31,177 nucleotides of DNA, taken from positions 1 through 31,177 of the IMG/VR virus record IMGVR_UViG_3300034279_001044; one strand, 5' to 3'. The notes beneath the pieces are model-generated. The model saw nothing but the letters and a program-made list of their open reading frames with translations, had not been told where the DNA came from and searched no databases. Made by a program: the position numbers and the translations under genes. This DNA comes from a virus. Shown here in pieces: positions 5,142 to 26,234 of this stretch; position 1 is the first letter of the stretch; every line of letters starts with the position of its first letter.

Positions 5142-5864
5142 TCAACCTTCACCGTAATTAACGTCAATTACTCCATTTAGGTCTGGTAAGTTTCCTATTT
5201 CTCTTAATTCACTAACTTGTTTACTCAATAAATCATAAGCTTCTTGATTTCTAACATATATGTTGCTCAATGAAGCAGAAACAAATGTCTGTTGATTTTG
5301 AACTCTAGCAGACATCAAATCTATACTGTTTTCTTGTTGTCTTTGTAGTTCTCTATTTATATTTTCAAGATACTGTATTCTTGTAGACTGTCTTGAATTT
5401 TCACTAGCGGCATATTGCATAAAATCATTTAATCTATCGTTTGAATTTGCCATATTTTCTATCAAATCGGATGAATTGTTTAATGCAGTTTCTAAATCAG
5501 ATATTTTCTTACGAAGAGCAGCAACTGAATTTTGATTTTGTTGTGCCAAATTTGTCAATTCTGATAGTAACTGGTTTTTTGCAACTTCTTTTACTAATTG
5601 CATTCCTTCTTTCAAATCTGCAGGTAAACCAGCTTCAAATAATATAGTTCTTTCGGATTCTTCCAATTTTCTAAAAATAATAGATTCTGCTTCGATTGCA
5701 GTTGGTAATGACTTAAATTCAGATTTAACAATGTATCTAAAATTATCAGTTAAAAATCTTTCATCTAAAACAGGAACTTCTACTTTTCCTTGATTTAGAA
5801 TAGAACTTTCTTCGGTATAACTTATTATTCTATTTGAATCGGTATCACGAACTAAACCACTCAT
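5142..5864 (-). CDS. Coiled-coil tail/baseplate protein, 240 aa
   Basis: The N-terminal 90 residues are mixed (MSGLVRDTDSNRIISYTEES at the start). Residues about 95-225 are a long, Gln/Asn-rich helical region with heptad spacing of Leu, Ile and Ala, for example ISDLETALNNSSDLIENM, and look like an extended coiled coil. The start ATG overlaps the stop of the upstream DNRLRE-like gene by four bases (ATGA), which implies translational coupling. The position inside the baseplate operon suggests a trimeric or rod-like connector between wedge and fibre components. No family was recognised, and the role is inferred from structure type and context. Confidence 0.65.
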   Translation of the reverse strand: MSGLVRDTDSNRIISYTEESSILNQGKVEVPVLDERFLTDNFRYIVKSEFKSLPTAIEAESIIFRKLEESERTILFEAGLPADLKEGMQLVKEVAKNQLLSELTNLAQQNQNSVAALRKKISDLETALNNSSDLIENMANSNDRLNDFMQYAASENSRQSTRIQYLENINRELQRQQENSIDLMSARVQNQQTFVSASLSNIYVRNQEAYDLLSKQVSELREIGNLPDLNGVIDVNYGEG

Positions 5865-7036
5865 CTTGTAACCTTAAAGTAATAATTGTTATCAAAAATT
5901 TGAACTCTATCACCACCATCTGTTTCTACTTTAATTACAACTCTATAAAATCTTTCAGGTTGAAAAGAGTTCATCCAAAGATTAAAATAACTACTTGTTC
6001 CATCACAACTAATTTTTGAACCACTATAATCAAATGGCAATATAACTTCATCAGTATGAGCATCTCTAATTTCATAATAAGAAGATGAAGGCAAATAATA
6101 ATTTATAGTATGATATGATTGAGTTGTGTAATTTTTTTGTGGATATTTTTGATTAGCATATATTCTAATTTTTGCCTTTTCAGTTTCAGCATAGAATTTT
6201 TTTAATTTTACATTTATATTCAAGTTTTCGTCTGATACTCGTGTTAGACTTCCAGTTACAAAAACAGAATCATCCCAAACAACATTAAGTCTTGGAACAT
6301 ATATGGTATTGCTATCAGTTCCAAAAAATTTAAGTCCTGTTAAGAATGCAACAGAAGATTCTATTTCGTCACTAAATTTTAATATAAATCCATCATTTTC
6401 AAATCTACCAGAACCGGTTATCCACTTTTTAACTATACCGGTTACATCCATGTAAATATCGGATGATTGAAATGAAAATGATTGAGTACATTCCAAATTA
6501 TCATAATCCCACCAAGTTCCTCCACCTTCATTTGTGTAATATGAAGATGTAACATCAGCTACTATGTTTGATCCACCCCACATATTATCATTTTGAATCC
6601 ATGTTTGTGATAAATTATCCCATTCAAATGATGATGTTGCAGGTGGAATTTCCCATTCTGTTCCAACAGTTTTTGATGATCTAAATTTCCAAGAAACACC
6701 ATCTGTTGTAATTGGGTTGTTTCCAAATCTACCGGTTCCATTTGTCCATGAAGAACTAACCGGATATGCGTATACTGTATATTCTTGTGGCAATTCTCTA
6801 ACATCAGCGGTTGCAAGTGATAGATAATACTTTGCATTTTGTGATATTTTTCCTGCATTTACTCTTTCTTCTATTTCACTAACATCAAATTTCAATAGAA
6901 CTCTTGCATTGTATATTGAAGAACCCGATCCATTTGCTTCATGTGAAATTTCCAATAAAGAATCCACACCAGTATTCATCTCTATTGACTTTTCGTAAAT
7001 GGTAGCATCTCTTTGTGCAAATATAGAATATATCAT
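5861..7036 (-). CDS. DNRLRE/CBM96-like beta-sandwich tail protein, 391 aa
   Basis: The N-terminal half has the pattern of DNRLRE (CBM96-like) domains: an opening RDATIYEKS, a 'N-x-G-x-x-x-x-L' stretch, then YNARVLLKFDVSEIEERV and later ADVRELPQEYTVYAY and VTGIVKKWI with GFILKF. Such domains normally occur in secreted carbohydrate-binding or fibre proteins as a rigid beta-sandwich. The C-terminal 130 residues form a second beta-rich region, with KIRIYANQKYPQKNY near its start. Start and stop overlap both neighbours by four bases, so it is coupled to gp6 upstream and to the coiled-coil protein downstream. A likely role is a baseplate-attached stalk or receptor-contact protein. The domain call is by eye from motif order only. 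Confidence 0.6.
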   Translation of the reverse strand: MIYSIFAQRDATIYEKSIEMNTGVDSLLEISHEANGSGSSIYNARVLLKFDVSEIEERVNAGKISQNAKYYLSLATADVRELPQEYTVYAYPVSSSWTNGTGRFGNNPITTDGVSWKFRSSKTVGTEWEIPPATSSFEWDNLSQTWIQNDNMWGGSNIVADVTSSYYTNEGGGTWWDYDNLECTQSFSFQSSDIYMDVTGIVKKWITGSGRFENDGFILKFSDEIESSVAFLTGLKFFGTDSNTIYVPRLNVVWDDSVFVTGSLTRVSDENLNINVKLKKFYAETEKAKIRIYANQKYPQKNYTTQSYHTINYYLPSSSYYEIRDAHTDEVILPFDYSGSKISCDGTSSYFNLWMNSFQPERFYRVVIKVETDGGDRVQIFDNNYYFKVTR

Positions 7037-8925
7037 CCGAATGCCCTCACTTTACCTATTATATCATTATTTGGGTATCTTACTTCAAAGATAGAAGGAT
7101 CTAATGACGGAAACAATATACCATCTTTTATAGATTGGTCTATATTGTAAGCATTTGGAGAATACCCTAATGTTTGATCGTATAAATTTTTGAATTTTAC
7201 TTGAACAACTGTTTGAACACCTGGAACTTTATCCAATTCTGTATAAACATTACTTATGATAATAGGTTGATTTATTTGCCATCTTTTTATATCAAAGTAT
7301 TGCTTCAATCTATCTATACACTTTAACAAAACTTTGTTTCCATTTTCATCGGGCATAATGATAACATCAAATTCAATTCCGATGTTAATAATATAAGCGT
7401 CACGAATGTTTATGGCATCTGTTAAAATTCTATGGTGATTTAGATATGTTTTCAAATTTTCTTTTGTTGCATTGTTTGCATTTATTAGTTTATTAGTACC
7501 ATCGTATGCCAATACATAAAAATTTAGAGCAAGTTGATTCTGCACTCTTTCATTATTAAATACAGCATCTCTTGTAAGTTGTGTATCTTTTGTTATGTAT
7601 GCCTTAGCAATAGAACCATATTTTGATGGAAGACTGTATGCACGAATTATGTAATCCTCTTTTGTTACAGCACGATTTTGTGATGCAAACGAAGCAACTG
7701 CATTTTGTCTAATTTCATTCGTTTCTTCTGGCTCTCTACCACCGGTTGCAGGTTGTGGGTTTGTTACTGCAAGACTTCCCAATACTTGTCTTAAAAGAAC
7801 TGAATCTAAACCACTTTCATCTATTAAAATGTTTCTGTTCCGTATTGAAGTAATTACATCACTAGGAACATTGTCCAATACACCATTTCCAGTAGTATAA
7901 TATACAGTCAATTTTGTATTATTAGGTGCAAGACCATATGTTTTTGTATACAAAAAATTTGATGGATCTATATTCGGTGAACTATTAAAAACATTTTGTG
8001 GCAATGAATTACCAACCAAATCTGGATTTGGAATCAAAAGTTCATCATCTAAATCGGATATTCCAGCACCAAACATTATTTCAAACTCACCATTTGATCT
8101 TTGTCTTGTAGTAAATCTTCTTGCAATCTTTCTCAACTTCAACAAGTATGGTGTTTCTTCTCTGTAATAACTTAACTGTCTGTCATTTCTTGATATGTTA
8201 GGCGTTGGTTCAAAAATTGTATCTTGTGCTAAAAATGGAACATGATACCATTTATTTCCATCCGAATCCATTGCATAAAGTATTTCAATTAAAGTTGGAG
8301 CTTCTAATGTAACTTTATCGTATGGTTTTGGTTCTACGAAATCATATTCTTGTGTTTGTATTTTTCCAGAAACAACATTAACTTGTTTTTTCAATAACCA
8401 AAATAATACTTCACCGGTATTTTCATCGGCTTCATACGGTGTAATTTCTGTTGGATCAAAACTACTACTAAACTTAAAATCCACATAGTCCGTTGTTCTA
8501 AATTCAATATCAGATGCATTTGTTGTTGCAATAATCATTCCATCTTCAATGGCAAATGCATAATCAAAATCAGGAACTATTTGTCCACTTATCATTTTTG
8601 ATGGAACTATTTGAAATACATCAAGTTTTGTATTAGATGCAATTTTATTTTTAGGCATATATCCCAATGACTGTGCAATGTTTATTATGTTTTGTCTTTC
8701 TGATGCATGATGTATCATCGACTCTTGTAAAGTTACATCTGTGTAGTATGAAAGAACATCACCAACATACGCAGCCATTTCCAAAAACATCATTCCAGGA
8801 GATGCTTCATTGAAATCTTGGTATGTATTTGGAAAATAATTTTTGGTAAAATCAATTAGATTTTGCTTTAATGATGAAAAATCTTTTGATAAATAACGAA
8901 TGTCTTTATTGACTAAATTAGCCAT
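7033..8925 (-). CDS. Baseplate wedge protein, T4 gp6-like (baseplate J family), 630 aa
   Basis: The N-terminus carries the gp6/baseplate-J signature seen in T4-like phages: DFSSLKQNLIDFTKNYFP, then FNEASPGMMFLEMAAYVGDVLSYY, then RQNIINIAQSLGYMPKNK. The last phrase is the conserved 'A-x-x-L-G-Y-x-P' element. A later stretch, RAVTKEDYIIRAYSLP, matches the conserved 'V-T-x-x-D-Y' segment of the family. In T4, gp6 dimers form the continuous ring of the baseplate and control sheath contraction. The gene overlaps gp25 upstream by eight bases, the usual pairing of these two wedge genes. The length is close to that of T4 gp6 (about 660 residues), and no defects are visible. Confidence 0.88.
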   Translation of the reverse strand: MANLVNKDIRYLSKDFSSLKQNLIDFTKNYFPNTYQDFNEASPGMMFLEMAAYVGDVLSYYTDVTLQESMIHHASERQNIINIAQSLGYMPKNKIASNTKLDVFQIVPSKMISGQIVPDFDYAFAIEDGMIIATTNASDIEFRTTDYVDFKFSSSFDPTEITPYEADENTGEVLFWLLKKQVNVVSGKIQTQEYDFVEPKPYDKVTLEAPTLIEILYAMDSDGNKWYHVPFLAQDTIFEPTPNISRNDRQLSYYREETPYLLKLRKIARRFTTRQRSNGEFEIMFGAGISDLDDELLIPNPDLVGNSLPQNVFNSSPNIDPSNFLYTKTYGLAPNNTKLTVYYTTGNGVLDNVPSDVITSIRNRNILIDESGLDSVLLRQVLGSLAVTNPQPATGGREPEETNEIRQNAVASFASQNRAVTKEDYIIRAYSLPSKYGSIAKAYITKDTQLTRDAVFNNERVQNQLALNFYVLAYDGTNKLINANNATKENLKTYLNHHRILTDAINIRDAYIINIGIEFDVIIMPDENGNKVLLKCIDRLKQYFDIKRWQINQPIIISNVYTELDKVPGVQTVVQVKFKNLYDQTLGYSPNAYNIDQSIKDGILFPSLDPSIFEVRYPNNDIIGKVRAFG

Positions 8926-9421
8926 TGTATATCGCCTCGGTTAATGTCAAGTTACCTGTTGTAGATATAAGTATTTGAATGGGTAAATATATGTCTGTTC
9001 CTTGTATTTGAACAACCAATTTAATCCCAACTGCATGGTCTGTTTCGATTACTCTACCATCCTCTGTTATATTTAATTCAACATCCAACTGATTTATATT
9101 CAAAAAAGGCATCCATGTTTTTATTGCAGAAGCAATTTCTTTTTTTATTTCATTAACAAAACCTTCTTCACTTGATATATTTTCAAACAGTATCAACCGT
9201 ATTTCTGTTCCAAATTCTGGTAACATATATCGTTCACCTTTTGCGGTTAATAACAGATTACGTAAATTAGATAAAACTTGTGAAACGTTAGTTATACTTT
9301 GATTGAATATACCGTTTGGATTGTTAAAAGGTAATGTAACACCAATATATTTGATATTATCGTTTGTAGTAGGCGATAATCCAGGATAGTGAACAGGTTG
9401 TTTTCTTCTAAAAGATCTCAC
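8918..9421 (-). CDS. Baseplate wedge protein, gp25-like, 167 aa
   Basis: The central motif GERYMLPEFGTEIRLILFE is the hallmark of the gp25/GpW-like family ('GER-x-x-x-P-x-F-G-x-x-x-x-x-x-LF'). It is followed by the expected helix NEIKKEIASAIKTWMPFL and a beta-strand region ending in VGIKLVVQIQGTD. In T4, gp25 joins the wedge to the sheath and nucleates contraction; relatives occur in type VI secretion systems and contractile bacteriocins. The start is GTG at 9421, chosen because GGGAG lies seven bases upstream; an ATG two bases further upstream is out of frame. It is three bases from the upstream gene and overlaps gp6 downstream. Confidence 0.9.
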   Translation of the reverse strand: MRSFRRKQPVHYPGLSPTTNDNIKYIGVTLPFNNPNGIFNQSITNVSQVLSNLRNLLLTAKGERYMLPEFGTEIRLILFENISSEEGFVNEIKKEIASAIKTWMPFLNINQLDVELNITEDGRVIETDHAVGIKLVVQIQGTDIYLPIQILISTTGNLTLTEAIYNG

Positions 9422-9904: not shown

Positions 9905-12112
9905 TTATAGCTGGCAAATGTCTTGTAAAACTTCATAATATGATGGTGTTTTCAAACCCTTTGGTTTATTTTTAATTAAATTTTTATCAGTTCCAGCTTT
10001 AACCTTTGAAATGAAGTCTTTAACAGCAGGTGTAGACTTAAATTTTGCACCAAGACCTTTTGATACTTTATTATTACCACCGTTTAATCTTGAAAAAGCA
10101 ACAACATTATGTTCGTTACCAAAATTGCTAAATGCATTTATTTCTTTTACAGCAAAACTACCACCATCATTTGTAAAACCATCTGGACCACCATCATCAT
10201 ATGTAGGTCCACAATTACCTGCCATTACATACATTCTTCCCGTTGCACTATTTGGATCAGCCCAAATTACTGTTTCAACATGGCTTAAATTGTAAATAAA
10301 TGCAACTTCCCAAGTTGTTCCGGTTGTCATTACTCTCCATAATGCCTTGCCTGCATCTGTCAATGTTCCACCTGAATAATGAACACCAGCTATAAAAACT
10401 GCAGCTGATCCACCACCTTTGATTGCAGATGGAAATGCACCTTTATCCTTCCATGGTGTTACAATAGGTGTTGGATTTTTTCTATTTTGCATCAACCAAC
10501 CACTACTATATGCATTTTTCCAACCATCAGAATTTAATGTATGATATGGACCGTTTACTACATTTCCACCTTTGTTTCCGTTTGCCCATTGAGCCCAAAT
10601 AACTGGAACTTGTAAAAATCCCCAATCCCAATTTGCGTCGGTGTAAATTCTTCCAGGATGCATTTTAGAACATTGTGCTGCACATTTTGTCATCATTTGA
10701 GCTGTAATAGCAGGAACACCAACCGGACTACCATGAGGTGATGTATATTTTCCAGCTTTTGTATAATAACTAGATCCAGCACCACACCACCATTGATTTT
10801 CATTCCAAGATGATCTAGGTGTGCCGTCACTTGGGTTTGATCCATTACCAATACCCCAATCTCCCATATTATACCAAGGAATAGATGGACTCTGAATTAT
10901 AGCAAGTTGTTCAGTTGGCCATCTACCGCCGGCACCAGAAGCCATATATGGAATTGCCTTATTCCAAACCCCAACGCTTGGAAAATTCAAAAATAATGGA
11001 ACATCAATCATAGATTGAATACCACCAGCAATCGGGGCTTCCTCCTGCATTTTTTTATTATCTGCACCAACATAATATGGAACGGATCCTAAAGCGGGAC
11101 CAACTGCAAGATTTTTTTCATTTTGTTGTGCACCATTTGTGGCATCTGATGGTTTTCTTCTTACAATCCAATACTTTTTACCTTGAAGTAAAGCTGAATC
11201 GTCTATCATTTTTTGAGTCATTTGTGGGGTTTCCATGTAATCAAAGACAAACCAACCCTCTCCTTTTGCCGTGCTTTGAAAAGCAGCTTGTTCTATTTCC
11301 TTTTCTTTTTCCTCTGTCATTGCATTACTGTTATCAACAACAGCAGGTGCAGATTGTGGTGTTTCTGCCGCCTTTTCTTTTACTTGTTCTTTTTCTTCTG
11401 TGTCTGTTTTAATAACAATGTTTGTTGGTGCACTCGATGGCGGTGCTGGTTTTTTTACTTCTTCACCTATCGGACAAACATCATCGCCAATATATTCATA
11501 ATTTTCGTTTGGATTTGCCTCATTTGGAGTAAACTGTCCTTTTATGTATTTACCAATATAAGTTTTTTTAGCATCATCAAGTTTATCCTTTCCATCATTA
11601 TCAAAAATATACGGACTATTTTTAATTTGATCTACAAACAATCTTGCCTTTTTTCTTTGATCAACAACAGTATTTGGATTGTCTCCGGAACATTTAATAA
11701 ACACGTATTCTTTACCAAATTGATAGCCCTTTTCCTTTTCTACTTTAAGTGCATCTTGACCAATACCCCAATCATTCATATTTATTTTATACGATCCAGA
11801 TGGTTCTTCGCCAGGTTTTAGAAATTTTTCATTAAATGTATTTGCATTTGAATCTGTACTTGAAGGTGGAATTGTTCCAGAAACTTTGTTTGGATCGGTA
11901 ACTTGTGTTGATGTTGCAGATGTTACAGAATTTTGAGTTGATCCAGTTGGCTGACCATCAGGTATACTTATTGTTTCAGTATTATCAGTTTGAGCCTGCA
12001 CCCTTGTTCTTCTCAAACTAGAATCATCAGCTCTATATTCTATCAATTTTGATATTAACGATATAGAGGCATTTGGGTTTTCTCTTTCTACATCATTTAA
12101 TGTTCTTGCCAT
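9905..12112 (-). CDS. Tail-associated protein with probable Cys/His peptidoglycan hydrolase domain (DUF2272/CHAP-like), 735 aa
   Basis: The N-terminal 100 residues are Ser/Thr/Pro-rich linker. Residues about 105-216 form a module with DWGIG near its start, FGKEYVFIKCSG (Cys141) and YIGDDVCP (Cys213); the C-terminus of the upstream 1589-residue protein carries a related module. A Pro/Glu-rich linker follows. The C-terminal half looks like a papain-fold amidase: NENQWWCGAGSSYYTKAG places a candidate nucleophile at Cys443, LSHVETVIWA a candidate His611, and MYVMAGNCG a polar third residue. This order matches DUF2272/CHAP-type hydrolases, although the Cys-to-His spacing (168) is long for them. 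In T4 the tail lysozyme lies in gp5; the gp5-like protein here shows no lysozyme domain, so this gene may supply that activity. Confidence 0.65.
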   Translation of the reverse strand: MARTLNDVERENPNASISLISKLIEYRADDSSLRRTRVQAQTDNTETISIPDGQPTGSTQNSVTSATSTQVTDPNKVSGTIPPSSTDSNANTFNEKFLKPGEEPSGSYKINMNDWGIGQDALKVEKEKGYQFGKEYVFIKCSGDNPNTVVDQRKKARLFVDQIKNSPYIFDNDGKDKLDDAKKTYIGKYIKGQFTPNEANPNENYEYIGDDVCPIGEEVKKPAPPSSAPTNIVIKTDTEEKEQVKEKAAETPQSAPAVVDNSNAMTEEKEKEIEQAAFQSTAKGEGWFVFDYMETPQMTQKMIDDSALLQGKKYWIVRRKPSDATNGAQQNEKNLAVGPALGSVPYYVGADNKKMQEEAPIAGGIQSMIDVPLFLNFPSVGVWNKAIPYMASGAGGRWPTEQLAIIQSPSIPWYNMGDWGIGNGSNPSDGTPRSSWNENQWWCGAGSSYYTKAGKYTSPHGSPVGVPAITAQMMTKCAAQCSKMHPGRIYTDANWDWGFLQVPVIWAQWANGNKGGNVVNGPYHTLNSDGWKNAYSSGWLMQNRKNPTPIVTPWKDKGAFPSAIKGGGSAAVFIAGVHYSGGTLTDAGKALWRVMTTGTTWEVAFIYNLSHVETVIWADPNSATGRMYVMAGNCGPTYDDGGPDGFTNDGGSFAVKEINAFSNFGNEHNVVAFSRLNGGNNKVSKGLGAKFKSTPAVKDFISKVKAGTDKNLIKNKPKGLKTPSYYEVLQDICQL

Positions 12113-12130
12113 TAGTATGCTCTAATATGT

Positions 12131-15100
12131 TTATGAACCGGGACAAACGTCGTCACCAATATAAATATCTCGTTGTGTTGGATCTCCTGACGGATGTGGT
12201 TTGAAAAACATTGCATTTCTATCAGCTGCATATTTTCCTTCTCGTGCATCTTTTCGTGCTTCACCTTGATCCAATCTGCCAAGACCACTACACCATATGT
12301 ATGTATATTTTTGACCATTAGATTCATATTGATATGACTTTGGTGAAGATTGATTTTGTGATGGATATATGTTTTCACCATAAGTTGTAGTGTCAGTTAT
12401 TAAAATTTTTATAGAACAATTTCTAGATGTTGTAGTTTCTTTTCCAGTTGGTGTAAATCTTCTCACCCCAGCATCTCCGTCATTAAATGCAGTTCCTCTA
12501 TTTTTAGACACATCCATTGTTCCCAATACTTGAATTGGTATAAACGATAAGTTTACAAATTCATTTCCACTTATATTAAAATCTTCACAAGTCATTGCAG
12601 TAAATAATCCATCTGGTAACTCTTTTAATTTATTGTTTGAAGCATTGTATGATCCATAAATTCCAAGTGAATCTTTTATTATTGTTGGTGAACTTTCTAA
12701 TGTTTCGAGTTGATTGTTAGAACAATCAAAATTAGTTACCGATGTTATTGTTGGTGTAATACCTTGTGAATAAAATCTTGTAATTCTGTTGTTAGAGCAA
12801 TCGATTCCACCTTTACCAAAAGTTTTAATAGTTGATAATGAGTCTAAAGATGTTATTGCACATTTAGAACAATTTATTAAAGTTTCTCTAGATTCTGCAA
12901 TTAAAACAGTAGCATCAAAACCTTTACCTTTTATTACACTTGGGATATGTTCTAAAGAAGTTAATGTTGGATTGTTACTACAATTAAAAGAATAAACTTC
13001 TTCTGGTGAATTTTTCAATGAAGATAATTGATTTCCAGAACAATCAAATACACCATTTACTGTTTTTGGTGCATTTTCTAATGTATTCAATTTTATATTA
13101 CTACATACAAAATCACCTTTGATTGAGTTAAATTTAACAGGAAATTTTCCATTTTCTAATGCTTTATCTGTTATCTGAACATTATCATTCCAATCAACAC
13201 TTCCATCTGCATTTATTACTACTTGATTGTTTGATGATATGATAGCTTTATCTTCAACCAATTTTTTCAATTTTTCAATCAAGGAAGTAGGTGGTGTAAC
13301 TCCTGGTTGTTCAATTACATCTAATGTTACTGATTTTCCAGAATATGATGGAGGGGCAGTAGAGAGTGCAGGTGGAACACTCATTTTCTGTCTCCAACCT
13401 GGATCACCACCGAGAGCTGCAGGAATGTTATCCATGACATCAGCATAAGGATCTCTTATTATCTCATCCGTTGAATTGTAGAGATTTGATAATAAATCTG
13501 GAGTCAATTCCAAATCATTACTTAAATTTTCAATCATTTCTGGATTACCTTTGCCACCAAACCTATCAAATTCTTCTTTCTTTGCAATTATTGAATTTTT
13601 AATTGTAACCGCCTTTTTTATAGCATCTTCAAAATTAGCAGCTCTACGAACAATTCTCTGTGCTTTAACAACATGAGAACCTTTATCATCTGGTTTGAAT
13701 CCCAAACAAATTGCTATACTTGATTGTAATTTTGGATCCAATCTTTCAAAATCTCGCCAAGAATTTGCACCTGGTGCAAATTTATCTAAAAATGTATCTC
13801 TAAATCTTAAAAATCCTCTATCAAGTAAACCTACAAAATTACCATCACTTTTTCCTTGAGCAAATAACGATAAATCTGCTCCAAATTTTATAGCATCGCC
13901 TGCCCATTCTTCATCCAATCCAAACTTTTTAGCAAACCATGCTTTATTCTCAGGTGACATTTCATCCCAAGCATCTGGACCAAGATTACCCAAATCATAT
14001 AAATTTTTACCAACTGATATTAACTCCCAAGTTTTAGAAATATCTGATGAGCTGATTCCAACATAGGCACCAACACTATTTATCAATCCTTTAACAGGTT
14101 CGGGCAATCTATCATAGTCAATTTCTTCAAAAATATCCATAAATTGCATTTTTAGATATTTGTCAAGACATGGTGTTTCGCCAGTAGAATCTTCTGGTTC
14201 GGATGGTTCCTCATATCCCAATTCTTTGTTTTCTTCTTGTAGTAATAATATATCACTTTCAATCTGTTGTAATTCTGCATTCAATTTTTTTAATTCATCA
14301 TTATTATTTTTAATTCCTTGTTGTATTGTTTCTGTTGTCCAAAATGGTTCCTCTGGTTTTGCATTTCTTAATTTTTCAATGTCTTCTTTTACTTTTTCAA
14401 TTTTTTGTAATAAATCTTCTCTTTTATTTTTTAACCCATCTAATTTATCATTATTAGTATTTATACGTTCTTCTATATTTATTTTTTCTTTGTATGCATC
14501 TCTTACTTTTCTTTTTTTATCAAGATCATTTTGAATTTTTGACAATTCTTTTTCAAGTGTTGCTATTACAACTCTTTCCTCAGGTGATGATCCATCACGT
14601 TCAGAAAGTTGTGTCACTAATAAATCTTCTTGATAAACTAAAGACTCTATTTCTTTTAGTAAACTATCATATTCATCATTTGTTAATTTTTCAGCACCAG
14701 TAACATAAACAACTTTTCCCTTTGAATCTACGGAATAATACTTATTTTCAATTCCAAGTTCAAAGGCATCTTCAAGTATTTTAACTCTAATACCTTTTGA
14801 AGATCCTATTAAATCCGTTAATGGCGATAACCCAATATCTAATTTTGGTTTTATTTGCGCAATTTCTACACGATTTCCCTTTACAATATCTATAACATTT
14901 TGTCTTGTACATTTTGAATTTATCTGTTTGATAGATATAACTTTTTGCATATTTCTTGCAATTTGTTCTTTTAGTGAATCCATATCAACATTACTTGTCA
15001 TCTTTTCTATTTGTTCTGCAAGAGCTGTTGCAACTAATGAAGTTTTTGTTGATAAGTTTCCATTTTTATCTCCTATATCGGCTCCTATTTGAGAAATTAA

Positions 15101-16900
15101 CCATCCTGTATTTTTTTTATCGGAAACTATTATATTTCTTTCAACTAAATAGTCCCAACGTTTACTAAGTGCTATAATTAAATCGTTCTTTTCATTTCTT
15201 TCACCTTGAAATGATAAATCAGCAGTAGCAACCCAACCCTCAAATCTTTTTCCATTTGGATATACTATACCCTTTGGACCAGAATTTGTTGGATTTTCAC
15301 TTGTTTTTGCTTCTGCCAATCTAGAATTTCTAGATGTTACTATATTCAATTGATTTAACCGACCAGCTGATCTAATAGATCCATCTTGATTTTGTTGTCT
15401 TGGTGAAGATTGACTTTCGATAAAACTAATTTGTAAGGGATTGTATTTATATGTAAAAATATCTGAATATGCTTTTGCGAAAGAAGGATATGTAGATTCA
15501 TCAATACCTGTTGTTGTAATGTCATCTCGAATAAGTGAATATGGATCTCTAACCTTCCCATAAAAAACACCATTATTATCATACGCATTTATTCTAGGTA
15601 TAAGGTTGTAAACTCCTAAATAAAATACAAGTTGTTTATCTAAAATTGGAAATAGTTGTGAAAAGTTACCACCACCCATTGATATAGGAATTTCCTTTCC
15701 GTTAAAATCTAAAGCTGGTATTTTTGCCAAATTTTCAAATTTCAAATCGTTTAGAAATGATAATAAAAGTAAATCTAATTGGGCGTTTTTTACATACTCT
15801 ATATTTTCAGGTGACATATCACCATCAAATACACCTATTTGCTTAAATTTTACTTGTTCTTCTACATCAATGGATTCATTTACACTCTTTTCTCGTCTTG
15901 AAACATTTATTCCTAATTTTTGTACAACCAATTCATTAACAACACACTTCAAATCTGGAGAAAGATCCTCTAATGTTGGTGCGTCAAAATGTTGTAATAA
16001 ACCACTTAATAATGAACCATAATCTGGATTGTCACCAACAACCAATTTCTCAATCAAATCTGGAATAATTCGCAGTTGTCTCATTTTTTTTGCAATGTTT
16101 TCCAGTGTTTTAACTTCTGTTTTTAAGATTTTTGCTATTCTTAATTTTTTAGCAGAAGGAAATCTGTCATAATCTGCAATACTACGAATTGATGATATGA
16201 TTTGTGCCTCCATGTATAAATTTTGTGCACTTATGTAAGCAAGATATATCTTCATTCCGGTAAGAACTATTGGAATAAAATCAGAACTTGGTAATCCAAT
16301 TAACTTTGCAAACAAATCATTTTCTGCTTCCAAATCTCTATCGTCTAATTTTTTCTTGTCATCATCAGACAATTTACTAAAATCAATTCCAAGCTGTTCT
16401 TGAACAAACTGAGATCCTGAAAATATCTGTTTTCCTGCCCAATCTGCTCCAGTTCCAATATAACCACCGATAGTTTTCATTGCATCGGATATGTATTTTT
16501 CAACAGAATCTATTGCTGGTGTTAAAACTCCATCTGGACCAAAAAATGAATCTGTTTTTACATCTAAACTTACTGTCAGATTTATTTGTTCAGGTGCAAC
16601 TGCTCTTTTACTTGTTATTATTAAAGTTGCAGTTCCAATTAAAGCACCTGTTAATTCTCCAATGTCAGAAACAGTTGCAGTTGTTCCACCACCTTGAATT
16701 TCAAATTTGAAAATATCTTTTATTATATCGTTTGCAGATCTTCCATTTGCCAATAATTCATCATATCTTTGAGATTCCTTTCCTGAAAGAGTCATAAATA
16801 AAGGCAATTTAATTGTTTCACCTTGACGGAATGTAATAGTGTATGATTTTCCGTCTGCATTTAATTTTATTTGATCATTTTGTTTTAGACTAAAACCCAT
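12131..16900 (-). CDS. Giant baseplate/tail protein with coiled coil and leucine-rich repeats, 1589 aa
   Basis: The longest gene in the window begins MGFSLKQNDQIKLNADGKSY. Residues 1-130 are beta-rich and about 200-700 mixed alpha. Residues about 735-890 are a strongly heptad-patterned coiled coil (for example KNKREDLLQKIEKVKEDIEK). A Pro/Ser linker near 1190-1220 leads to leucine-rich repeats at about 1250-1455, with Cys-containing units such as FDCSGNQLSSLKNSPEEV and FDCSNNQLETLESSP. The last 55 residues hold the module KYTYIWCSG ... YIGDDVCP (Cys1537, Cys1586), shared with the next gene. It sits between the gp5-like hub gene (three bases upstream) and the hydrolase gene, so a hub, needle or central baseplate role is plausible. 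T4 has no obvious counterpart. It is too coiled and repeat-rich in its C-terminal half to assign a single family. Confidence 0.7.
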   Translation of the reverse strand: MGFSLKQNDQIKLNADGKSYTITFRQGETIKLPLFMTLSGKESQRYDELLANGRSANDIIKDIFKFEIQGGGTTATVSDIGELTGALIGTATLIITSKRAVAPEQINLTVSLDVKTDSFFGPDGVLTPAIDSVEKYISDAMKTIGGYIGTGADWAGKQIFSGSQFVQEQLGIDFSKLSDDDKKKLDDRDLEAENDLFAKLIGLPSSDFIPIVLTGMKIYLAYISAQNLYMEAQIISSIRSIADYDRFPSAKKLRIAKILKTEVKTLENIAKKMRQLRIIPDLIEKLVVGDNPDYGSLLSGLLQHFDAPTLEDLSPDLKCVVNELVVQKLGINVSRREKSVNESIDVEEQVKFKQIGVFDGDMSPENIEYVKNAQLDLLLLSFLNDLKFENLAKIPALDFNGKEIPISMGGGNFSQLFPILDKQLVFYLGVYNLIPRINAYDNNGVFYGKVRDPYSLIRDDITTTGIDESTYPSFAKAYSDIFTYKYNPLQISFIESQSSPRQQNQDGSIRSAGRLNQLNIVTSRNSRLAEAKTSENPTNSGPKGIVYPNGKRFEGWVATADLSFQGERNEKNDLIIALSKRWDYLVERNIIVSDKKNTGWLISQIGADIGDKNGNLSTKTSLVATALAEQIEKMTSNVDMDSLKEQIARNMQKVISIKQINSKCTRQNVIDIVKGNRVEIAQIKPKLDIGLSPLTDLIGSSKGIRVKILEDAFELGIENKYYSVDSKGKVVYVTGAEKLTNDEYDSLLKEIESLVYQEDLLVTQLSERDGSSPEERVVIATLEKELSKIQNDLDKKRKVRDAYKEKINIEERINTNNDKLDGLKNKREDLLQKIEKVKEDIEKLRNAKPEEPFWTTETIQQGIKNNNDELKKLNAELQQIESDILLLQEENKELGYEEPSEPEDSTGETPCLDKYLKMQFMDIFEEIDYDRLPEPVKGLINSVGAYVGISSSDISKTWELISVGKNLYDLGNLGPDAWDEMSPENKAWFAKKFGLDEEWAGDAIKFGADLSLFAQGKSDGNFVGLLDRGFLRFRDTFLDKFAPGANSWRDFERLDPKLQSSIAICLGFKPDDKGSHVVKAQRIVRRAANFEDAIKKAVTIKNSIIAKKEEFDRFGGKGNPEMIENLSNDLELTPDLLSNLYNSTDEIIRDPYADVMDNIPAALGGDPGWRQKMSVPPALSTAPPSYSGKSVTLDVIEQPGVTPPTSLIEKLKKLVEDKAIISSNNQVVINADGSVDWNDNVQITDKALENGKFPVKFNSIKGDFVCSNIKLNTLENAPKTVNGVFDCSGNQLSSLKNSPEEVYSFNCSNNPTLTSLEHIPSVIKGKGFDATVLIAESRETLINCSKCAITSLDSLSTIKTFGKGGIDCSNNRITRFYSQGITPTITSVTNFDCSNNQLETLESSPTIIKDSLGIYGSYNASNNKLKELPDGLFTAMTCEDFNISGNEFVNLSFIPIQVLGTMDVSKNRGTAFNDGDAGVRRFTPTGKETTTSRNCSIKILITDTTTYGENIYPSQNQSSPKSYQYESNGQKYTYIWCSGLGRLDQGEARKDAREGKYAADRNAMFFKPHPSGDPTQRDIYIGDDVCPGS

Positions 16901-16903
16901 ATA

Positions 16904-18433
16904 TTATCCTCCCGTGCTTCCAAATAAGCCACCATCCGATTCGTTGGGATTAGAACCTTCTGCATTATTAAAAATTCTATCCGATGTCAAATCTTCTGAT
17001 AGTGGTTTACCTATTGATTCTAATATATCAACTTGAACTTCTGCAATGTTACCCAATTCACCAATTTGTTGTCCAATATCTGCATCATCAAGAACTGCTG
17101 GAACAACAACAAAAGTATCAGGCGAATCTCCATATTGACTATTGTGATATTCTTCGATGTAAGATGTTGATTTTTTATTCTTAGCTTTTTCTTTCTCGCC
17201 TTCTGATGGACCTCCTGCCTTTTCATTTAGAAAAACAAGTTTACTTGGTAATTTATCTAATTTCCCCCTATGTGCCTTCAATTTACTTTTTGCTGTAGAA
17301 AATTGTGCAACATTTATGGGAACACCAGATGGTCCAGTTCCTGTTGGATGTGTTTGTGATTCAATAGCGGCTAACACATCGGATAGTAAATCACATAATT
17401 GTGCCAACCAGTTTATAGTCCTATCTCCTAACAGAGCAGGTGATAATGCGTCTAATCCCAAACTTATTTTTTTAGATTCAAGTTCAACTACTTGAGCACC
17501 ATCAAGTGATATACCCTTTTCGGAAGAAAATCCAATACCCTCTTTACTAAATCCAATAATTTCTTGTTTTTTTGCATTAAAAATAATTCTATCAGATGTT
17601 AGAAAAATTTGATTTCCACCATACTGATTTTTCATAAACAAATCTATTGATTTTGAACTTATAGACGGTGTTGTTTTTGATGCAGGTGTAAATTTTACAT
17701 ATTGTCCTGATGTAAGCCATATTCCAGAATCATCGTTGTCTGGATCTTCAATAACAAATTGATTGAATGCCTTCCCTTTTGGATTTGTTCCGTTTGATAT
17801 TATAGTTATTGGATTTCCTGTTTGTCCTAAACCTTTTTTCCAAAGTGGTGCCTGTGGGTATTTTCTTCTTTCATCAACCGTTGAACCAAATCGTATTGAT
17901 TGTCCCCATCTTCCCTCAAATAGTATATCGCCTGAATATACTTGTAATGGGTAAACGTCAAGTCTTTCTGGAAAAGTAGGATCTATTGTTTTGTTTACAT
18001 TAAGTCTATTTTTTACTTTGTTCATCACACCAACTTCTGCATTTGTTCTAGCACCAACACTCCCAATTTGATGTTTTGTCAAAAAGTCAGTAACGCCTGG
18101 TAAACCATTGTGATGAACAGAACTCTGAACAGGAATTGGATTAGTATAGTAATACTCTTGTGCAGTTGCTCTTGCACTGTTGTATGCGGTTGGACCCTTT
18201 CTCACAAATACAAGTTCGCCTTTGATCGGAACATTTTTTATATTCGAGTCAATCGGCCTTGCTTCAATAATATCATAAGGTGTCTGTGAACCATGGGCAC
18301 CCATTATTTTACAGTACACCTTAAAAAGTTTTTCTTTACTTTCACCAAAAAAATCTACTCGCTCAACAACTGCAGGGACAAACTCATAGTTTATCCCGTT
18401 TATCGTGATTTGCTGTGGATCCTGTATCGGCAT
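16904..18433 (-). CDS. Baseplate hub protein, gp5/VgrG-like, 509 aa
   Basis: The N-terminal region (to about residue 80) with KGELVFVRKG looks like the OB-fold of gp5/VgrG hub proteins. It is followed by the stretch PLQVYSGDILFEGRWGQSIR, then RFGSTVDE, NPITIISNG and SGIWLTSGQYVKF, a series I associate with the gp5-like proteins of T4-type marine phages. After this come repetitive short beta segments (ISLDGAQVVELESKKISLG) that could begin the shaft. No lysozyme domain is visible. The start at 18433 was chosen because GAGGAAAAAG precedes that ATG; an in-frame start 63 bases upstream would give a Lys/Arg-rich extension lying deeper inside the neighbouring gene. The first 50 bases overlap the end of that gene. 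In T4, gp5 trimers form the membrane-piercing hub. Confidence 0.75.
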   Translation of the reverse strand: MPIQDPQQITINGINYEFVPAVVERVDFFGESKEKLFKVYCKIMGAHGSQTPYDIIEARPIDSNIKNVPIKGELVFVRKGPTAYNSARATAQEYYYTNPIPVQSSVHHNGLPGVTDFLTKHQIGSVGARTNAEVGVMNKVKNRLNVNKTIDPTFPERLDVYPLQVYSGDILFEGRWGQSIRFGSTVDERRKYPQAPLWKKGLGQTGNPITIISNGTNPKGKAFNQFVIEDPDNDDSGIWLTSGQYVKFTPASKTTPSISSKSIDLFMKNQYGGNQIFLTSDRIIFNAKKQEIIGFSKEGIGFSSEKGISLDGAQVVELESKKISLGLDALSPALLGDRTINWLAQLCDLLSDVLAAIESQTHPTGTGPSGVPINVAQFSTAKSKLKAHRGKLDKLPSKLVFLNEKAGGPSEGEKEKAKNKKSTSYIEEYHNSQYGDSPDTFVVVPAVLDDADIGQQIGELGNIAEVQVDILESIGKPLSEDLTSDRIFNNAEGSNPNESDGGLFGSTGG

Positions 18434-18773
18434 CTTTTTCCTCTTGTTCTTGTTGAATTTCTTGAATACTCTGTAATAGAGATTCTTTTTCCTCATCGGT
18501 CAAGAACGAAGAAGATTCTTCATTTTTGTTTACCATAGCACGTTGAACAACAGCAGCCAGTTTGACTAAATGTTCATCGTTCTTAACCGAAACTTCAATA
18601 AAATCTTTTATAGCTGGAACCAATATAGCAGCATCACTTATATTATTGAGCATTGGTTTTAAGTCGGCTATAAGTAAATTTATTTGACGATCTTTTTTCT
18701 TCTGATTATCGTAAATGTCTTTCAATAAATCAGAGAATTTTTTGTTTCCGAATAATTCTTGATCAAAATTCAT
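18384..18773 (-). CDS. Small acidic-tailed protein between sigma factor and hub genes, 129 aa
   Basis: The chosen start (MNFDQELFGNKKFSDLL) is the first ATG after the stop of the sigma-factor gene, 13 bases away; an upstream in-frame ATG at 18815 would lie inside that gene. The protein is mostly helical, with KKKDRQINLLIADLKPML and KNDEHLVKLAAVVQRAM, and ends in a Gln/Glu-rich charged tail. Its 3' end overlaps the gp5-like gene by about 50 bases. It has no membrane segment. Its place next to the gp55-like gene makes a transcription co-activator (as T4 gp33 is to gp55) a possibility, but no sequence likeness to gp33 is visible, and a baseplate assembly role is equally possible. Confidence 0.6.
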   Translation of the reverse strand: MNFDQELFGNKKFSDLLKDIYDNQKKKDRQINLLIADLKPMLNNISDAAILVPAIKDFIEVSVKNDEHLVKLAAVVQRAMVNKNEESSSFLTDEEKESLLQSIQEIQQEQEEKDADTGSTANHDKRDKL

Positions 18774-19890: not shown

Positions 19891-20550
19891 TTAACCTCTC
19901 TTGTGTTTTGGAGGAATTATTACATCTATTACACCAAGATTTAATGCATCCGATGGTGTAATGTAATAATCTTTTATAGTAACATTTTTCCAAAATTCCA
20001 CATCTTTGTTTGAATTTGTTTTTAGTATTTCCAAAAGTATTTCTTCCAATTTTTCCATGTGTTGAACATTTGCTTTCATATCGGAGGATTTACCATATAT
20101 GTCAGAACTAATCTCATGGAACATGATAGTAGAGTATTGGGATGCCAAACGAGCGCCAGTTCCTGCACAAAGAATAAGAGCAGCAGCAGACATTGCTCTA
20201 CCTCTACAAATAGTATTAACTTTAACGTCAAGACTTTGCATATAATCAATGATACCAAGTGCCTCATAAACAGAACCACCATCGGAATTGATGATAAGAT
20301 TTATTGGATCATTTTTGTGTTCTTCCGTTCTCATGTGCATTATTGCACGAATACGTGTGATAATGTCATATAAAGAACCATCCATGATTTCACCGAATAA
20401 TAAAACAGTTGATGCATTTACATCAATTCCATAATCCATTTGAGTTGTTGCTTCTTTCCAACGAACTGGAATATCATTTTCTTTTTCTTTTGATTTATTG
20501 TCTACTTGGTTTTGTTCAACAACATCTTCGCCATCATAAAAATCGTTCAT
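19891..20550 (-). CDS. ClpP-like serine protease, 219 aa
   Basis: The ClpP fold is recognisable: NLIINSDGGSVYEALGIIDY, then RGRAMSAAALILCAGTGARLA, then STIMFHEISS, and at the end DYYITPSDALNLGVIDVII. The catalytic triad is intact by alignment at Ser121, His145 and Asp194; the 24 and 49 residue spacings agree with bacterial ClpP. About 40 residues precede the core, mostly charged (Asn/Asp/Glu/Lys), which could be a propeptide or a phage-specific extension. Phage ClpP-like proteins serve as capsid maturation proteases or form mixed complexes with host Clp ATPases. No capsid gene is in view to favour the first option. The start is preceded by AAGGAG. It heads the ClpP-membrane protein-sigma gene cluster. 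Confidence 0.85.
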   Translation of the reverse strand: MNDFYDGEDVVEQNQVDNKSKEKENDIPVRWKEATTQMDYGIDVNASTVLLFGEIMDGSLYDIITRIRAIMHMRTEEHKNDPINLIINSDGGSVYEALGIIDYMQSLDVKVNTICRGRAMSAAALILCAGTGARLASQYSTIMFHEISSDIYGKSSDMKANVQHMEKLEEILLEILKTNSNKDVEFWKNVTIKDYYITPSDALNLGVIDVIIPPKHKRG

Positions 20551-21737: not shown

Positions 21738-22643
21738 TTAGATTCCGTATTCCGTTAGGTATCGTTTGAGAGCAAGTTCTTTTGCTTTACATTCTAACAT
21801 AATATCAATATCATGTCCGTATGTGTTAATTTTTTCTAATATGTAGTCTGCATGGGCTTGTGGTTTTTCTTTTGGATTACCGGTTTCTTTTAGTCTTGAG
21901 GATGAATAATGAACAACTGGTGTAATATCTTCTGGCCATGTAGATATTGCAAGTTCGAGTGCCTGTTGTTCAGTCAAATCGCCAGTACAAAATTGGTGAT
22001 GGTGATAATCAAATACAATAGGAATACCACAACATTCATGAATTTTCATAAGATCTTTTACTGAATACATACTTGCTTTATCATCATTCTCAATGGTAAG
22101 TCTTGAACGAACACTATGGGATAATAATTGAAAGTTTTGACACCAACGGTCAAGTGATGCGGTCTTGTCACCATAGACACCGTTACAATGTATATTGATT
22201 TTGTTGTATGGTGTATGTGATAAACCCATCATGTCAAATACTTTACCATGTAATTCTAAGTCAATTATGGTATTCTTAACAACATCCGAATTTGGTGAAC
22301 ATAGAACATTGAAAGGTCCAGGATGACATGATAGACGAACACCATGTTCTTTTGCATAATCACCAATTCTTTTAAGAACAATTTTGATTTTATCAATATC
22401 TTTGAGTTGTTCCAAGTCGTATTCAGAACCCCAAGGAAATACATTAGAAGATGTGCGGAATAAATAAATACCGTTTTGGACATTCCATTTGATAATTTTT
22501 TCCATATCAACAACATTCAGATATGCAAGTTCAGAACAGTAGTCTAAACCTTTTTGTAGAAATGTTTTTTTAATCATGGAACGGTTGGTAGTGATTTTAT
22601 CTTTTGATAAAGTCATGTTGATGCAGGCATATCCGAGTTTCAT
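21738..22643 (-). CDS. uvsE: UV DNA damage endonuclease (UvsE/UVDE family), 301 aa
   Basis: The family motifs appear in order: LGYACINMTL at the N-terminus, VRLSCHPGPFNVL, INIHCNGVYGDK, a metal-ligand stretch LTIENDDKASMY, IVFDYHHHQFCTGD, and HYSSSR followed by PQAHADYI. These are the metal-binding and active-site positions of the TIM-barrel UVDE enzymes, which cut DNA 5' of UV photoproducts and other lesions. The length of 301 residues is normal for bacterial UvsE, and nothing appears missing. The family's usual 'HxGG' is HCNG here. A host-type promoter lies just upstream (22675-22705), so it is probably transcribed separately and early. The gene is uncommon in tailed phages and was probably acquired from a host. 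Confidence 0.92.
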   Translation of the reverse strand: MKLGYACINMTLSKDKITTNRSMIKKTFLQKGLDYCSELAYLNVVDMEKIIKWNVQNGIYLFRTSSNVFPWGSEYDLEQLKDIDKIKIVLKRIGDYAKEHGVRLSCHPGPFNVLCSPNSDVVKNTIIDLELHGKVFDMMGLSHTPYNKINIHCNGVYGDKTASLDRWCQNFQLLSHSVRSRLTIENDDKASMYSVKDLMKIHECCGIPIVFDYHHHQFCTGDLTEQQALELAISTWPEDITPVVHYSSSRLKETGNPKEKPQAHADYILEKINTYGHDIDIMLECKAKELALKRYLTEYGI

Positions 22644-25547: not shown

Positions 25548-26234
25548 TTATTTCCAATTTAATGCTTCCGAAATGTTCGGAAATTGATTTACAAAAATTG
25601 ATTTTATACCATCTGCAATCAAACGATGTTCTTTTTGTGTATCAGACGAACAACGAAGTTCCAGATAATGAATCCAACTACGAACAGAACCTTTCATATA
25701 CATAGTAGTTTCTGTTGATAATGGAAGAACATCACGAGCTGTTTCTCTTGATATTCCTTGTTTAATCAATTTATCGTATAACATTTTTGAATTTGCAATA
25801 TGTTGTTCAATATCACGCTCTAATGTGAAATCTGGAACAACTTCTTCCGAACTTTGTCTATTTGTTTTTCCTTGTCTTCTCAATTCTATTTTTTGTATTT
25901 CTGTTGCTGTTGAATATCTTTGAGAAAATTCTTGGAAAGCAAAAGATTTATGACGAAGAATCTGAGCTGCAATACTTCTTCGAGTTACAATCTCAAATGT
26001 AATATCAACAAATTCAAATGGAGACCAATGTTTATGTTTAATCAAATAGTTTATCAATTTTGGAGCAGTTTCCATATTCATCTGATTATCTGGATTACTT
26101 ACTCTAGCAATATAAACAATCAATTCTTCTGGTGTTACTGTTGTGAATGAACCATCTTCGGTGAATCTAACTAATTCTGATGGATTTGTGATCGAAACTA
26201 ATCTTACTGTATCTTTTAATTCAGTAATACTCAT
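25548..26234 (-). CDS. thyX: Flavin-dependent thymidylate synthase ThyX, 228 aa
   Basis: The ThyX signature is present around residues 94-108: QILRHKSFAFQEFSQRYS, with the family Ser at 104. The usual RHR is RHK here. Other landmarks are HWSPFEFVDITFEI before it and ARDVLPLSTETTMYMKGSVR followed by IHYLELRCSS afterwards. The enzyme makes dTMP from dUMP using FAD, NADPH and methylene-tetrahydrofolate, without dihydrofolate as product. The length is normal. It overlaps no neighbour and follows the 158-residue gene by three bases. Phages carry ThyX to raise dTTP supply for an AT-rich genome. No dCMP deaminase or dUTPase is visible in this window. Confidence 0.93.
   Translation of the reverse strand: MSITELKDTVRLVSITNPSELVRFTEDGSFTTVTPEELIVYIARVSNPDNQMNMETAPKLINYLIKHKHWSPFEFVDITFEIVTRRSIAAQILRHKSFAFQEFSQRYSTATEIQKIELRRQGKTNRQSSEEVVPDFTLERDIEQHIANSKMLYDKLIKQGISRETARDVLPLSTETTMYMKGSVRSWIHYLELRCSSDTQKEHRLIADGIKSIFVNQFPNISEALNWK

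Follow-up and report, generated by a model that had tools for sequence, protein, structure and literature searches.

SPOR, LysM and PG_binding are small domains attached to wall enzymes, and the LysM and SPOR domains concentrate enzymes on their substrate. The closest described counterparts of the hydrolase-like protein presented here are the T4 gp5 lysozyme and the CHAP 'lytic cleaver' of the phi812 hub (PDB 9eum), which it resembles in that its gene adjoins hub-like and gp25/wedge genes. The window (the whole stretch of DNA that was analysed) is an entire IMG/VR virus record of 31,177 bases (IMGVR_UViG_3300034279_001044; 32% GC), in which no tRNA gene was found. A sequence-only reading had pointed to a shared two-Cys segment in two adjacent tail proteins encoded in the window and proposed that it is a duplicated docking or peptidoglycan-binding module described by no known family. 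The safest statement is that the module is a real and as yet unnamed accessory domain, found on hydrolase-like and leucine-rich-repeat (LRR) proteins carried by the baseplate.

Baseplate neighbourhood of the module genes

Both open reading frames are present as claimed, encoding 1589 and 735 aa on the minus strand, and they lie among the following genes.

7033..8925, minus strand: baseplate wedge subunit, 630 aa (PHROG 219, E 1.6e-23)
8918..9421, minus strand: gp25-like baseplate wedge protein (Pfam GPW_gp25, 4e-9; PHROG 261)
9905..12112, minus strand: 735-aa protein, comprising an N-terminal peptide, linker, module B, linker and a putative CHAP/NlpC-like core
12131..16900, minus strand: 1589-aa protein with predicted coiled-coil-like and LRR regions and module A at its C-terminus
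16904..18496, minus strand: hub/spike-like protein bordering a variable slot (synteny in ~50 loci; PDB match weak)

IMG/VR contains at least 353 relatives of the wedge protein, which also has relatives in Microcystis phage Mel-JY01 (69% identity) and Flavobacterium phage immuto (43% identity). The adjoining gp25-like and wedge genes, together with these relatives, place both module genes in the baseplate region of a group of contractile-tailed phages that is represented mostly by environmental DNA. That the product of 16904..18496 is a gp5/VgrG-like hub we only infer; Pvc8 is its sole PDB match, and a weak one (E 0.52).

Genes for a ClpP-like protease (19891-20550, E 1.8e-31), a UvdE UV endonuclease (21738-22643, E 6e-60) and ThyX (25548-26234, E 1.5e-46) are located upstream of the baseplate genes. 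The 391-aa protein encoded after the wedge gene (5861-7036) has a CBM96 match near threshold (2.4e-5) and is perhaps a carbohydrate-binding baseplate part.

The two-cysteine module and its family

The two copies and their conserved residues are positioned as follows, all on the minus strand.

12134..12400, minus strand: module copy A, residues 1501-1589 of the 1589-aa protein (profile match E 1.2e-24)
12290..12292, minus strand: invariant Cys1537 of module A
12143..12145, minus strand: invariant Cys1586 of module A, in YIGDDVCP
11462..11809, minus strand: module copy B, residues 102-217 of the 735-aa protein (profile match E 5.4e-27), a predicted alternating strand-helix domain
11690..11692, minus strand: invariant Cys141 of module B
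11642..11656, minus strand: R-K-K-A-R helix motif of module B, residues 153-157, with R153 and A156 family-invariant
11474..11476, minus strand: invariant Cys213 of module B, in YIGDDVCP

The segment from CSG to YIGDDVCP occurs in both adjacent tail proteins, and the Cys spacings reported earlier, 49 (C1537-C1586) and 72 (C141-C213), are exact. The extent proposed for copy B needs revision at its start, which falls some 25-30 residues before the residue 134 first given, at the strand SYKINMNDW. Direct blastp of the 1589-aa protein against the 735-aa protein gives one alignment (E 0.006, residues 1521-1587 versus 128-214), and profile-profile comparison of A and B by hhalign gives 96.8% (E 3e-10).

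Approximately 150 baseplate loci were gathered via the wedge and hub-like proteins, and their ORFs were searched with iterated profiles. This profile search of phage proteins, a step that the sequence-only reading had suggested, yields module copies at E values of 1e-29 to 1e-9, whereas no reversed sequence, used as a control, scores below E 1.3. A-type, B-type and N-terminal-type profiles were built separately to guard against circularity, and retrieve each other as next-best matches among 5189 ORFs (best cross-match E 1e-5), with hhalign values of 95.5% between A and N-terminal types and 97.6% between N-terminal and B types. A pattern scan added a group of loci (L176, L177, L180, L181, L182, L185, L192) with two copies per protein, these proteins being 1402-1466 aa where complete. 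The family amounts to 21 distinct copies across related baseplate loci, and the residues C, R, A, Y, G, D, C and P are invariant in 21/21, including window copies A and B. The elements C-x2-D, A-R/K and D-D/N/E are near-invariant, and the motifs common to the 21 copies are C-x2-D, R-x2-A-R and Y-[IV]-G-D-x-x-C-P, such that the likeness extends well beyond the GDDVCP string; outside these motifs the copies are ~20-30% identical. On this profile evidence modules A and B are homologous.

Two IMG/VR relatives at 62-64% identity (L001 and L002) retain both copies; in G001, a syntenic contig at greater distance, the module occurs once, N-terminally in an LRR protein of 858 aa. In a tree of 14 module copies, in which inner support is weak, the A, B and N-terminal types cluster by type, which does not support a recent tandem duplication. 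By this grouping window copies A and B are old paralogues, and the module can be called duplicated in that sense only.

A third, degenerate copy had also been proposed in the 735-aa protein, at the following position.

11150..11182, minus strand: GKKYWIVRRKP, residues 311-321 of the 735-aa protein (hydrolase core, no module)

The module profile does not match these residues even at E 10, and in an alignment with relatives of 456-480 aa that have no module the segment falls opposite YWAYR..., so that we assign it to the enzyme core and exclude it as a degenerate module. The only candidate degenerate copy noticed is a Cys-less, sub-threshold stretch in L144 (E 0.54).

The proposal that no known family describes the module is borne out by searches of Pfam, PHROGs and PDB sequences, none of which gave a match. 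PDB sequences show nothing below E 1.5, a Pfam scan of 14 module copies up to E 10 gave one chance match, to another family, and profiles of SPOR, LysM and PG_binding do not match the copies. A tblastn search of a phage collection with the 735-aa protein and one N-terminal-type module found no match, nor was the module matched in a collection of genome contigs, where absence is weak evidence as one of the scans used a single peptide pattern. The module was not found in the whole record of Mel-JY01, and no description of a two-Cys module was found in the literature. Its confinement to the baseplate locus is judged from 20 whole records, many of them fragments, and from pattern-based scans, in which divergent copies can be missed.

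Carriers of the module in a variable slot

The module genes occupy a variable slot between the hub-like protein and gp25. In related loci the slot contains a phage lysozyme and VanY (L057), an M15 peptidase and GH19 (L053), CHAP, and GH19 plus VanY proteins (L107), NAGPA and CHAP (G001), or, in Mel-JY01, a gene annotated as a putative chitinase, with some of the Pfam matches of these enzymes falling just under the curated cut-off. Across L021-L175 the slot ranges from one enzyme of ~345-590 aa to several large proteins, and the flanking wedge genes stay ~70-90% identical. Long slot proteins start with an alpha/beta-hydrolase-like segment (GFSxG/A), seen by eye and without a Pfam match, ahead of the wall enzymes (L019:12440-16249, L107:11216-14746, L110:4043-7639).

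The carrier features of the window are these.

12521..13138, minus strand: leucine-rich-repeat region, ~residues 1255-1460 of the 1589-aa protein (repeated FDCSxNxL..L motif)
10061..11017, minus strand: putative CHAP/NlpC-like core, residues 366-684 of the 735-aa protein
10784..10786, minus strand: putative catalytic Cys443, which co-varies with His611 across relatives
10280..10282, minus strand: putative catalytic His611, which co-varies with Cys443 across relatives

The 1589-aa protein has a weak Pfam LRR_4 match, and LRR regions homologous to its own occur in related slots. Some phages (L020, L045, L057, L107) carry an LRR region on the hub-like protein itself (630-866 aa), at its C-terminus; in others, including the window, LRR regions occur only on the protein adjoining it.

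The module is N-terminal in 8 distinct LRR proteins and C-terminal in those of the window, L002 and L024; it also occurs internally (L086), within a hydrolase linker (the window and L002), or twice in one hydrolase of 1402-1466 aa (L180, L181 and L185). In L180 and L181 the CHAP-like core is preceded by the two copies in alternation with stalk-like sequence. Module B sits between the core of the 735-aa protein and its N-terminal peptide (MARTLNDVEREN...), which by eye is like MPLLIANIETEN... and MAGIDDIEREE... of relatives, and at its position L030-type relatives carry a linker only. Relatives of the hydrolase core exist at 456-480 aa without any module, which is thus dispensable for the enzyme. 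Likewise, residues 9-12 of the module-less LRR protein of L074 align with residues 111-113 of the module-bearing L107 and L045 proteins, and because the former begins directly after the module of the latter, the module behaves as a detachable appendage. Prior to addition of the L180 group the module was present in 8/16 LRR slots and 0/37 other slots, a strict association that is broken by the two-module hydrolases of L180, L181 and L185, which have no LRR neighbour. From its distribution among these sequences the module is a swappable building block.

The 735-aa protein has no Pfam and no PHROG match, and a Foldseek search with its model found nothing in the PDB below E 1.5 and no significant match among viral models. 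The best VIA-align match of the C-terminal part of its AlphaFold model is LysIME-EF1 (Z 5.1, rmsd 3.9, 122 residues), followed by PcsB (4.6), Ly7917 (4.3), DVU_0896 (4.2), P210 CD lyase (3.9) and the phi812 hub CHAP (3.2); the top five are all wall-related CHAP/NlpC-type enzymes, albeit at low Z (3.9-5.1). The core has a conserved Cys and His (C443/H611) where CHAP/NlpC-P60 peptidases have them, and the pair is retained together in Cys-bearing relatives. In long multi-enzyme relatives C443 is replaced by S or D and H611 by Y, F or R, mostly jointly, the exceptions being L028, L029 and L033 (D/H), in which the His is retained alone. This co-variation adds weight to the low-Z structural match, and the assignment of the modelled core as a CHAP/NlpC-like hydrolase is supported but not proven; hydrolase activity of the 735-aa protein is what we infer from it. 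The CHAP-like core lacks the Cys, and mostly the His, in long multi-enzyme relatives (L107, L019, L045, L025), in several of which a separate CHAP protein adjoins, as if an old CHAP-like domain had turned into a structural part.

Possible role and relation to known systems

Placement of the module on baseplate hydrolase and LRR proteins is consistent with the docking or peptidoglycan-binding role first suggested. We give an even chance to the reading that it is a disulfide-stapled, ~65-115 aa alpha/beta, non-catalytic binding or docking cartridge on baseplate-carried proteins of a contractile-tailed phage group. One copy lies in the linker of the putative CHAP/NlpC-like hydrolase and the other ends the LRR protein encoded next to it, and since each protein carries one copy, both would be held at the same tail-tip partner, either in the baseplate or in the cell envelope, as the enzyme breaches the wall. 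The placement and the conserved YIGDD loop suggest binding; the non-catalytic role and the common partner are likewise presumed. A broader reading is tentative: that this is a new domain superfamily restricted to the baseplates of one environmental myophage group, a common plug that loads differing proteins (wall enzymes, LRR proteins) at the tail tip via a disulfide-stapled cartridge recombining among carriers.

Possibly, though we doubt it, the module is a cell-envelope binding domain that attaches to a surface polymer or to peptidoglycan and gathers the enzymes of the tail tip at their substrate. It lies on or beside cell-wall hydrolases, alternates as two copies with stalk-like sequence ahead of the CHAP-like core in L180 and L181, and has a near-invariant acidic YIGDD loop. 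A search of viral structures also returned a weak match named 'Peptidoglycan binding-like' at rank 2 (probability 0.13), but this is non-significant and its aligned region is unreported, none of the known wall-binding families is matched, and the majority of copies belong to LRR proteins in which no catalytic domain is recognised. That the module serves purely as a structural spacer, a small and stable linker insertion that binds no ligand, is unlikely; this would account for the occurrence in differing linkers and termini and the absence from close relatives, but not for Y-I-G-D-D-x-C-P and R-x2-A-R, which are near-unchanged in a domain otherwise ~20-30% identical, beyond the apparent needs of a spacer.

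In the model of the 735-aa protein the block at residues 101-170 has pLDDT values of 73-92 and the remainder of module B 57-85. Module B is predicted to form a strand (105-109), helix (119-127), strand (135-139) and helix (149-165), followed by a helix (180-189) and a short strand (206-207). Module A modelled alone (mean pLDDT 56) has two strands and one helix, and at this model quality a fold search returns only uninformative rows at Z 2.1-2.4. The two invariant Cys probably form a disulfide, since no other Cys is universal and the N-terminal-type copies acquire a further pair jointly; the joint presence of that pair in all such copies suggests an additional disulfide. Counting against a disulfide, phage proteins fold in the reducing cytoplasm. 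A two- or four-Cys metal site in its place is improbable: N-terminal-type copies do have four conserved Cys and L180-type copies a C-x-C, but A and B copies have only two and no conserved His, and just two Cys are common to all 21 copies. Chance similarity confined to GDDVCP, which the modest pairwise blastp score (E 0.006) might suggest, is scarcely credible given the profile, orthologue and reversed-control evidence, and is refuted by the alignment of the 21-copy family.

The strict signature C-x2-D ... R-x2-A-R ... Y-[IV]-G-D-[DNE]-x-C-P defines an unnamed domain in the most variable part of the contractile baseplate. Should the module prove to be a cartridge for loading or targeting, it would illustrate how tail-tip enzymes are exchanged between phage frameworks, and its signature would let annotators spot tail-carried hydrolases and LRR proteins that currently have no family match.

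Among known systems, LRR proteins of uncultured megaphages (0.64-0.74 Mb) and of Vibrio phage VB_VaC_TDDLMA match the LRR region of the 1589-aa protein at 33-37% identity, and the matches are limited to that region, excluding module A. With SPOR, LysM and PG_binding the module shares a possible role only, and no sequence match. To our knowledge T4 gp5 and the phi812 hub CHAP have neither the two-Cys module nor an LRR partner protein or the N-terminal peptide. Besides its gene neighbourhood, the 735-aa protein would share with these baseplate peptidoglycan hydrolases a putative CHAP/NlpC-like core with a Cys/His pair.
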